This document shows positions 17,698 to 25,818 of a stretch of 32,806 nucleotides of DNA, one piece after another. Each line of letters starts with the position of its first letter. The stretch's first letter is position 1. A model generated the notes under the pieces. That model was not told the origin of the DNA. It saw only the letters and a program-made list of their open reading frames with translations, and searched no databases. This DNA comes from Flavobacteriales bacterium (GTDB lineage Bacteria > Bacteroidota > Bacteroidia > Flavobacteriales_C > GCA-002722245). The position numbers were made by a program, and so were the translations under genes. The stretch is taken from assembly GCA_023251075.1 (NCBI GenBank), contig JAHEZM010000035.1:1-32806 (forward strand), in the 5' to 3' direction.

Positions 17698-18522
17698 ATG
17701 ACTAAAGAGGAGTTATTTAAAAATATTCAAGAGAAGAAATCATTTTTGTGTGTTGGTTTAGATCCCGACATTCAAAAAATCCCAAAGTTTTTATTGGAAC
17801 TCGAAGATCCGCTTTTTGAGTTTTGCAAAAGAATTATCGATGCTACCAAAGATTATTGTGTTTCTTATAAACCTAACACAGCTTTCTTTGAAGCTTATGG
17901 ATCAAAAGGGTGGGAGAGTTTGAAAAAAACCATCGCCTATGTTCCAAAAAATTGTTTCACCATTGCCGATGCTAAACGTGGAGATATAGGCAATACCTCT
18001 TCGTTATATGCGCGTGCATTTTTTGATGAAATGGGTGCCGATTCTGTTACTGTTGCACCTTATATGGGAGAAGATTCGGTGAAACCATTCTTACAACATC
18101 CCGGAAAATGGGTGATTGTTTTAGCGCTTACATCCAATCAGGGTGCTCTCGATTTTCAAACTCAGGTATTGAAAGATTCTGATGAACATTTGTTTGAAAA
18201 GGTTTTAAGAAAAACTTCTGAATGGGGTACTCCGGAAAACTTAATGTATGTGGTGGGAGCAACTCGCGCACAAATGCTGGAAAAAGTACGAAGTATTGTC
18301 CCTCATAATTTTCTTTTGATTCCAGGTGTTGGAGCTCAGGGCGGAAGTATGCAGGATGTTTTTAAATACGGAGCTAATGCTCATTGCGGATTATTGGTGA
18401 ATGCATCCCGCAGTATTATTTATGCCTCTACAGGGAATGATTTTGCTGAAAAAGCCAGAGATGAAGCAAAAAAAATGCAAGCAGAAATGGAAGTGCTGTT
18501 AAAACAGAAATCATTGATTTAG
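17698..18522 (+). CDS. pyrF: Orotidine 5'-phosphate decarboxylase
   Basis: Last enzyme of UMP synthesis, converting OMP to UMP and carbon dioxide. The 274-residue length fits the type 2 OMP decarboxylases (about 270-280) rather than the short 230-residue form. The catalytic Asp-Lys-x-x-Asp array is seen as [10 protein letters not shown] (D91, K93, D96). The substrate loop near the start shows CVGLDPD, and the phosphate-gripping end contains PGVGAQGG and a final [11 protein letters not shown]. It is the last gene of purM-prfA-pyrF, joining purine, translation-termination and pyrimidine functions. A REP-like hairpin begins 11 bases after the stop and may act as its 3' end structure. Confidence 0.95.
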
Positions 18523-18532
18523 TTTATGTCTG

Positions 18533-18556
18533 GTAGAGACGAAATGCTTTCGTCTT
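18533..18556 (+). repeat. REP-like hairpin 1 (left pair, forward)
   Basis: A 24-base unit: GTAGAG head, then a hairpin with arm ACGAAA, loop TGC and arm TTTCGT, then CTT. The stem including the flanking G/C covers 18538-18554 without mismatch. The GTAG head is the tetranucleotide known next to REP hairpins of RAYT systems. Confidence 0.8.
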
Positions 18557-18607
18557 AAAAAAGAAAATTCCATTAAATTATAAAAGGAAAAGGGATTAAA
18601 TCTATAT

Positions 18608-18631
18608 AAGCCGAAAGCATTTCGGCTCTAC
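18608..18631 (-). repeat. REP-like hairpin 2 (left pair, inverted)
   Basis: Same unit on the minus strand with stem arms CCGAAA/TTTCGG and the GTAGAG head at its right end. It is inverted relative to REP 1 with 51 bases between them, forming a REPIN-like pair. The stop codon of the transposase gene lies within the head (18628-18630). Confidence 0.8.
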
Positions 18632-19182
18632 GTTTTTAAAGGATTCATTTTAATATAATTAGGGTCTGATTCCCATTTAATTATATTTTCATTGATGTAA
18701 TTTTCAATACTGATTAATTCGTTTTGGTTTCGAATAATCCTTTCATAAAAATTTGATTGCCACACACTTTTGATTCCAATATTTTTTGCTTTTGATGTCA
18801 CACTTGCCTTAATTCCCCTAACAAATGAACTTAGATTGTTACTTTGTGTGGTGAATGTGTTGAACTTATCTAAAATTAAGGTGTATTTAGCAACTTCATA
18901 GGAAGAAATGTTGGTGCTATTGCTGATGTAGATAATGGCATGTAAATGATTAGGCATTATTACCCAAGTCCCTAAAAACATATTATTTCGAGTAATGTCG
19001 GTTTTTAATAACTCTTCCTTTATTATTTTTCCTAGCTCTGATTCGAAGAATTGTGAGCCTTTAATTTGCCCAAATATATTTTTTCTTTCAAAACTGCAAA
19101 TAGTAATGAAATATGCTCCATCGGAGGAGTAATCAAATCCTTTCATTCGCAGAGATTCTGCTTTATAATTTCTGTAATCCAT
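18628..19182 (-). CDS. REP-associated tyrosine transposase (RAYT)
   Basis: Single-domain HUH endonuclease of the IS200/IS605-like Y1 superfamily, 184 residues from the ATG at 19182. The family opening is clear: SLRMKGFDYSSDGAYFITICSFERKNIFG. The HUH motif is H79-L80-H81 in MPNHLHAIIYI, and the catalytic tyrosine is Y146 in QSNFYERIIRN, so the enzyme looks intact. RAYTs cut and join single-stranded DNA at REP hairpins and usually stay as single-copy chromosomal genes. Here a pair of inverted REP-like hairpins lies on each side, and the stop codon sits in one of them. A longer frame from 19236 begins inside REP 3 and is considered read-through. Its strand opposes both flanking operons, which fits an inserted unit. 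Confidence 0.88.
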   Translation of the reverse strand: MDYRNYKAESLRMKGFDYSSDGAYFITICSFERKNIFGQIKGSQFFESELGKIIKEELLKTDITRNNMFLGTWVIMPNHLHAIIYISNSTNISSYEVAKYTLILDKFNTFTTQSNNLSSFVRGIKASVTSKAKNIGIKSVWQSNFYERIIRNQNELISIENYINENIIKWESDPNYIKMNPLKT

Positions 19183-19219
19183 TTTGTGTTTAGTTAGTGT
19201 TGCTAAAATAGAAAATAAA

Positions 19220-19243
19220 GTAGAGTCGAATTGCATTCGACTT
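19220..19243 (+). repeat. REP-like hairpin 3 (right pair, forward)
   Basis: A 24-base unit with GTAGAG head, stem arms TCGAAT/ATTCGA, loop TGC and CTT end. It lies 37 bases upstream of the transposase ATG. Confidence 0.8.
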
Positions 19244-19284
19244 TAAAAGAGAGATTCAAAAAAGAAAAGGAATATTTTTCATTT

Positions 19285-19308
19285 AAGTCGAATGCAATTC
19301 GACTCTAC
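19285..19308 (-). repeat. REP-like hairpin 4 (right pair, inverted)
   Basis: Identical to REP 3 but inverted, with 41 bases between the two units. The right pair differs from the left pair by matched changes in both stem arms. Confidence 0.8.
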
Positions 19309-19423: not shown

Positions 19424-20713
19424 ATGAAAGAAAAAATTGTTCACTTCCTATGGAAGCATAAGCTATTTAATGCTTCATCGTTAATTTCATCCTGTGGAAA
19501 AGAAATTGAAATTATTAAAGTAGGCACACACAATCAGGATAAAGGCGGTCCGGATTTTTTAAATGCCTCCATTAAAATTGGAGATACGCATTGGTTTGGT
19601 CACGTTGAAATTCATTTAAAAAGTTCCGATTGGATAGCGCACCAACATCAATTTGATCCGGCTTACGATTCTGTTATTTTACATGTGGTTTGGGATAGCG
19701 ATAAAATTATTTACAATAAAAAATCAGTGCCGCTTCCTGAGCTTTGTATTAGTTCGTACGTAGATCAAAATGTGTTGCGATACATTCGCGATTTTCAGAG
19801 TAATAAAGAAATTATTGCTTGTGGTTCTCTGGTGAAAGATGTTCCTTATCTCACTAAAAAAATGTTTTACGATAGATTGGTGGTGAGTAGAATTCAGCGA
19901 AAAACCAATCAACTGAAACAAGATTATATTCAGCTCAATAAAAATTGGGAACGCTTGTGTTTATTGGCAATTTCACGCGTTTTAGGTTTAACACATAATG
20001 TAGAATCATTTGAAAATTTAGTGAAATCAATTCCTTTGGATGTGATTCAAAAAAATAGAGATAGTAGTGTTGCTTTGGAGGCTATGGTTTTCGGACAATC
20101 GGGTTTCTTTGAAAATGAATATGAAGATAAATACGCGCATGCTTTGAAAGAGAAATATTCTTTTTTACAAAAAAAATATAAATTCTCTTCGCTCAATTAT
20201 TCGCAGTGGCAATGGTTTCGAATTCGTCCTGCTTCATTTCCATCTATTCGTTTAGCTCAGTTTTCTTCTTTTTTATTTCATCGCAGTTCTTGTTTTTCGC
20301 AATTGATGGAAATGAATTCAAAAAATGAAATAGAGGAGTTTTTCACTTTTCCGGTATCAAAATATTGGCAAAACCATTATCATTTCGATCGATTGAGTAA
20401 AAAGAGCAGTCATCAGCTTTCTAAAGAATGGATTGATAAAATTGTTATTAATGCGATAGTGCCTTTATTTTTTTTAAGAGCTGAATTGTATTCTGATATG
20501 ACTTTGATGGAGAAAGGATTGTGTTTTCTCGAAAATACTTTGGCAGAAAAAAATATAATTCAGCGGAAATGGAAGGATGTAGCGGTAGATTCTAGGAATG
20601 CATTTGAAAGTCAGGCCCTCACCGAATTGTATAAAGAGTTTTGCTCTCAGAAAAAATGCTTAAATTGCAGCATTGGCTTCGCTATACTTAAAAATTGCAG
20701 TAAAAATGGTTGA
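19424..20713 (+). CDS. DUF2851 family protein
   Basis: A 429-residue soluble protein of the DUF2851 family, found almost only in Bacteroidota. Recognition rests on the N-terminal block: FLWKHKLFNASSL, then GTHNQDKGGPDFLNASIKIG, HWFGHVEIHLKSSDW and the following DSVILHVVWDSD. The Asp/Glu/His pattern in the GGPDF...GHVEIH block resembles the metal centre of PD-(D/E)xK nucleases, but I can only suggest this. The C-terminus has a cysteine pair (CSQKKCLNCSIG). It overlaps the following PspC-domain gene by eight bases, so the two are likely co-translated. No function is established for the family. Confidence 0.82.
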   Translation: MKEKIVHFLWKHKLFNASSLISSCGKEIEIIKVGTHNQDKGGPDFLNASIKIGDTHWFGHVEIHLKSSDWIAHQHQFDPAYDSVILHVVWDSDKIIYNKKSVPLPELCISSYVDQNVLRYIRDFQSNKEIIACGSLVKDVPYLTKKMFYDRLVVSRIQRKTNQLKQDYIQLNKNWERLCLLAISRVLGLTHNVESFENLVKSIPLDVIQKNRDSSVALEAMVFGQSGFFENEYEDKYAHALKEKYSFLQKKYKFSSLNYSQWQWFRIRPASFPSIRLAQFSSFLFHRSSCFSQLMEMNSKNEIEEFFTFPVSKYWQNHYHFDRLSKKSSHQLSKEWIDKIVINAIVPLFFLRAELYSDMTLMEKGLCFLENTLAEKNIIQRKWKDVAVDSRNAFESQALTELYKEFCSQKKCLNCSIGFAILKNCSKNG

Positions 20714-25766: not shown

Positions 25767-25818
25767 GTTCAATGTTTAATGTTCAGAGTTAGCTAACTTT
25801 GGACATTAAACATTGAAC
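25767..25818. repeat. 52-base near-perfect palindrome
   Basis: Two 26-base arms starting GTTCAATGTTTAATG and ending CATTAAACATTGAAC meet at a central AGTTAGCTAACT with no loop. Only two G-T pairs and no real mismatch are present in the arms. It starts six bases after the acyl-CoA dehydrogenase stop and ends six bases before the next ATG. It may serve as a bidirectional transcript-end structure or be a dispersed palindromic repeat. Confidence 0.7.

Follow-up and report, generated by a model that had tools for sequence, protein, structure and literature searches.

Is a Y1 transposase gene that stands between two inverted pairs of GTAG-headed repeats in a Flavobacteriales genome part of a complete REPIN-RAYT unit, or is it only a neighbour of repeats with another origin? 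The gene lies in a stretch of 32,806 nucleotides (the window, by which we mean all of the DNA analysed), and the observations made on it concern anatomy, copy number, pairing, covariation, lineage-specific sites, and conserved catalytic and GTAG-contact residues. We regard it as very probable that the locus is a REPtron: a single-copy RAYT (subclass 2.4, or RAYT group 4) flanked by two cognate REPINs, with a modest number of further copies of these REPINs scattered over the genome, and working as proposed below. REPIN-RAYT units in Bacteroidetes have already been published (PMC6006769), and this locus adds another example. The genome bearing the window is here called G000, and its four relatives of the same genus G001 to G004; all five assemblies are drafts.

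Anatomy of the locus and its hairpins

A pattern search of the whole window returned four matches against 0.01 expected by chance, namely the four GTAGAG-headed units whose stem arms and TGC loop had been quoted in an earlier sequence-only reading. Two inverted pairs of these units bracket one minus-strand open reading frame (Table 1), in agreement with the forward and inverted arrangement around an intact Y1 transposase that had been described there; the frame encodes an unbroken Y1/HUH protein of 185 aa. Each 23-nt unit folds on itself as GTAG followed by an 8-bp stem and the TGC loop; the earlier reading had given the stem 6 bp, which is corrected here to 8 because the head 'AG' base-pairs with the terminal 'CT', pairs that had been missed. 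The length of the protein follows from homology that begins at the ATG at 19185; initiation at the ATG at 19236 was rejected, that codon being part of the right-hand REP. Rfam gave no match anywhere in the window. At 25767-25818 the window also holds an intergenic 26-nt near-perfect inverted repeat with no spacer, likely a terminator or other palindromic repeat.

Table 1. Features of the REPIN-RAYT locus and its neighbouring genes (positions in the window).
Feature	Position	Strand	Remarks
pyrF (OMP decarboxylase)	17698..18522	+	upstream neighbour, insertion-site marker
Left REPIN	18533..18631	+	99 bp, two inverted REP units, conserved interior
REP unit a	18533..18555	+	GTAG + AGACGAAA-TGC-TTTCGTCT
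REP unit b	18609..18631	-	GTAG + AGCCGAAA-TGC-TTTCGGCT; its TAG is the RAYT stop
RAYT / TnpA-REP CDS	18628..19185	-	185 aa from ATG at 19185; ORF open to 19236
RAYT stop codon TAG	18628..18630	-	within GTAG of REP unit b
RAYT catalytic Tyr codon	18697-18699	-	
RAYT HLH motif	18940-18948	-	
Right REPIN	19220..19308	-	89 bp; interior oriented opposite to left REPIN
REP unit c	19220..19242	+	GTAG + AGTCGAAT-TGC-ATTCGACT
REP unit d	19286..19308	-	GTAG + AGTCGAAT-TGC-ATTCGACT
DUF2851 protein gene	19424..20713	+	downstream neighbour; adjoins pyrF in 4/4 relatives

Across the 12 full elements of G000, 96.4% of cells in the local hairpins are paired (at most 42% in slid control versions), and double-sided stem changes number 40 against 13.7 in shuffles, which bears out the compensatory changes noticed earlier in the window. 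The long hairpin formed by a whole pair covaries too; at the most variable position, however, it is broken in 5 of the 12 elements, while the local pairs hold in 12/12 and 10/12. The long hairpin was accordingly rejected as the sole conserved structure: since local pairs hold where it breaks, the single REP hairpin is the unit preserved, and not only the hairpin of the pair. Selection on the hairpin, which the earlier reading took as implied, is likely and falls short of proof because template-switching repair of palindromes could likewise yield matched changes.

The enzyme and its relatives

The predicted protein matches the NCBIfam model REP_Tyr_transpos (NF047646, REP-associated tyrosine transposase) with an E-value of 7.6e-15 and 55 bits, under the curated cut-off of 80, and the Pfam model Y1_Tnp (PF01797) with 22.4 bits, just below the cut-off of 23; among solved structures, TnpA-REP (PDB 4er8, E 5e-4) was the one relative found. 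An HUH motif (H97-x-H99) and a single catalytic tyrosine (Y180, hence Y1) are present, and H97, H99, W159, Q160, R169, Y180 and N184 (P0001 numbering) are invariant across eight Bacteroidia homologues. In E. coli TnpA-REP the residues W94, Q95, E100, H101 and R104 contact GTAG (PMC6006769); in the alignment with 4er8, W94, Q95, E100 and R104 fall on the identical W159, Q160, E165 and R169, and the position of H101 is occupied by R, as reported for some other TnpA-REP subclasses (PMC6006769). One match to this RAYT was found in G000, so that it is a single-copy gene and not a self-copying IS; the other Y1 genes of the genome are IS200-like (on contig C38) and of the YIHQNP type (2.6-like, on C36). 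Plasmid records contain two relatives only, both distant.

Judged by its motifs and by the lack of a C-terminal 'SS' tail, the enzyme appears to fit TnpA-REP subclass 2.4 (RAYT group 4), with an HuH-Y distance of 83 that is undecided between subclass 2.4 (median 88) and subclass 2.6 (82). With subclass 2.4 it shares the NHxH, WQ and YIxxN motifs, a length of about 190 aa, the missing 'SS' extension, canonical GTAG REPs flanking the gene, and one gene per genome. It departs slightly from the listed motifs (NHLH and YINENI here, NH[IFV]H and YIxNNP there), and, unlike many members of that subclass, this gene carries no internal REP.

A RAYT of this type was found in 68 of 198 genomes of the class. 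Among 32 intact RAYTs of this type in the class, a GTAG REP lies within 300 bp of the gene in 15 and inside the gene in 26, whereas control windows gave one in 32; the REPs around these related RAYTs differ in sequence from those here. REPtrons of subclass 2.4 with GTAG REPs are abundant in Cyanobacteria and Bacteroidetes (PMC6006769). The GTAG head thus fits known REP/RAYT systems, as had been proposed from the sequence, and the emphasis then placed on gammaproteobacteria is weakened, since earlier work had found GTAG REPs together with RAYTs to be common in Bacteroidetes (PMC6006769).

The REPIN population and its insertion sites

The count of copies in G000 comes from searches with patterns and with a covariance model. 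The strict REP pattern gave 17 exact units (none for the reversed control pattern), and relaxed and pair searches gave 12 full elements of 85-122 bp, those outside the window lying on contigs C26, C27, C28, C31, C34, C35, C42 (three) and C43. Besides these there are one partial copy (C17) and one single unit (C42), and 24 of 26 clear REP units stand in inverted pairs, so that the search for further copies proposed earlier ended with 12 pairs against two lone or partial units. All 12 full elements are intergenic, a point that the earlier reading had proposed to test; they overlap genes only through stop codons and spuriously called ORF starts. Between the arms lies a conserved, asymmetric interior of about 47 nt (CTTAAAANAGAAAATATTCC...GGAAATAATCTTTTTAAG), found in both orientations. 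The C35 element (G000:C35:5603-5724, L014:1501-1622) is longer and measures 122 bp, the excess coming from a tandem duplication within its arm and interior.

The covariance model recovered the family in four of the five species of the genus, with 13 elements in G000 (one of them partial), about 22 in G001, about 10 in G003 and one in G004; it found none in G002 and none in 55 genomes outside the genus. Among the genomes of the genus this RAYT occurs in G000 only. In G001 there are two different RAYTs, which share 34-39% identity with that of G000 and are set among GTAGGGGCG REPs: one likewise takes its stop codon from the TAG of a REP; the other runs off its contig within a REP. At that contig end (G001:C28, L052:1792-1814) the sequence stops in a GTAGGGGCGAGC REP that is internal to the RAYT gene and that probably broke the assembly. 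No RAYT of this type was found in G003 or G004, though REPINs are present in both. The expectation that copies vanish where the RAYT is absent therefore did not hold: G003 keeps its elements with no such gene, and G001 has the most with only RAYTs that go with a different REP. Deletion of the REPtron has been reported for many E. coli strains (PMC3733652).

The dominant stem differs among the genomes, being CGAAATGCTTTCG in G000, CAGATAGAATCTG in G001 and ACACATGATTGTGT in G003, and the REPs flanking the RAYT carry the dominant, mostly lineage-specific type of G000. This match would tie the RAYT, by association, to a recent expansion of REPINs in G000. The tie between the RAYT and the REPIN family as a whole rests on adjacency and a shared CGAA stem type in one genome, a limit set by the REPINs that G001, G003 and G004 carry without this RAYT.

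Flanking genes were traced into the four relatives, and of eight sites compared, six are empty there: those of the C34, C31, C28, C26 and C43 copies (C43 against one relative only) and the RAYT site between pyrF and DUF2851. This last spacer contains the RAYT in none of the four relatives, other repeats in three and a short gap only in one; with a different repeat in 3/4 (L153-L156), it looks like a repeat hot spot. The copy at C42:118842 is common to G001 (C22:700), with homologous flanks on both sides, and that at C27:39375 may be shared, one flank alone aligning. No target-site duplication is visible in the REPIN flanks. At C34:182169 the two genes overlap by ATGA in the relatives and are separated by a REPIN in G000, where the TAG of the REPIN substitutes for the lost stop codon; the genes at C26 and C31 stop where their counterparts do in at least one relative, at the same codon. 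Over four genomes, 34 gene ends lie within -40 to +60 nt of 88 element ends, and 10 of them fall exactly on the TAG of GTAG, the end of the RAYT itself included. Di Nocera 2013 (PMC3733652) describes GTAG REP ends as often supplying a TAG stop to flanking ORFs; stop donation is thus an already described habit of GTAG REPs, here in another phylum.

Some element ends have company. Many in G001 (L193, L198, L201, L202, L203, L205, L207, L214) are preceded by GTCTTC, or GAAGAC on the other side, and the repeated or targeted sequence there therefore reaches beyond GTAG. In G003 (L217, L218, L220, L225) and G004 (L226), ends adjoin a longer repeat finishing in GTTTTTAGGTTG(A/T)G, which may be a second mobile element or else a favoured target.

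Origin of the elements and significance

By analogy with work on E. coli TnpA-REP, from which binding, cleavage and mobilisation are carried over to this enzyme, the HUH/Y1 protein would bind single-stranded DNA at the GTAG foot and 8-bp hairpin, cut by means of its tyrosine, and copy or move the two-hairpin element in trans. New copies would land in intergenic gaps without visible target duplication, often at the exact 3' end of a gene, where the TAG of GTAG would then serve as the stop codon.

In several respects the system resembles the Pseudomonas fluorescens REPINs, as described in the accessible part of PMC3116915, and the E. coli BIMEs (PMC6006769): two inverted REPs with a spacer, an intergenic location and one linked RAYT. 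It differs from both in having only 12 full copies, a conserved asymmetric interior of some 47 nt, a small 8-bp stem with a 3-nt loop, and a host in the Bacteroidota. With the GTAG-tagged palindromic repeats treated in the available text of Di Nocera 2013 (PMC3733652) it has in common the GTAG foot, dimers, a position downstream of genes and the use of TAG as a stop; Bacteroidetes are named there for CGTC repeats and not for GTAG, which is the foot found here.

Other origins were weighed. Were the elements retained as transcription terminators or mRNA 3'-end structures, with the RAYT merely adjacent, then their stable hairpins and the 34 gene ends near 88 element ends would be accounted for; the conservation of the GTAG ends and of the interior between the hairpins would not, nor would the two orientations, the empty sites in relatives whose genes there end normally, the copy (L072) that sits between divergent genes, or the REPs of other sequence around related RAYTs. 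We hold this to be very improbable as an explanation of the elements, and a side role in 3'-end stability to be possible. Still less credible, and to our mind very nearly dismissible, is an origin as ordinary MITEs, with GTAG...CTAC as their terminal inverted repeats and a DDE transposase to move them. Near-constant length, inverted ends and a non-coding interior are what a MITE would have, but the flanks are without visible target-site duplication, each arm is its own hairpin and is kept as such even when the arms differ, the enzyme that the elements bracket is of the Y1 type, and GTAG with its hairpin matches the REPs of other RAYTs.

More weight, though still well on the unlikely side, is due to the view that the RAYT is domesticated or inactive and that the REPINs were spread by an earlier enzyme since lost from most species of the genus. 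It is favoured by the REPINs without a matching RAYT in G001, G003 and G004, by each genome having its own dominant stem type, and by the tyrosine motif YINENI instead of YIxNNP; its difficulty lies in a reading frame and catalytic residues that are intact, and in flanking stems of the dominant, mostly lineage-specific type of G000. We prefer the REPtron as the account of this locus. The proposal of a complete REPIN-RAYT unit in a Bacteroidota genome is upheld by inverted pairs found genome-wide, covarying stems, intergenic copies and an enzyme of the TnpA-REP type.

A further idea, which we offer tentatively and think rather doubtful, is that REPIN populations are rewritten in place within each species toward one stem type, orthologous sites included. 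At the site common to C42:118842 in G000 and C22:700 in G001 the loop differs in step in both arms (AGC and AGA, respectively), and AGA is the general type of G001. If the idea were true, REPINs would be a gene-conversion system steered by changing RAYT specificity. The locus offers a compact case of a REPIN-RAYT system in the Bacteroidia, in which four related species are unlike in stem type and in how many REPINs they carry, and empty sites can be read. At sites such as C34:182169 both the preference for certain insertion points and the cost of an insertion can be seen directly.
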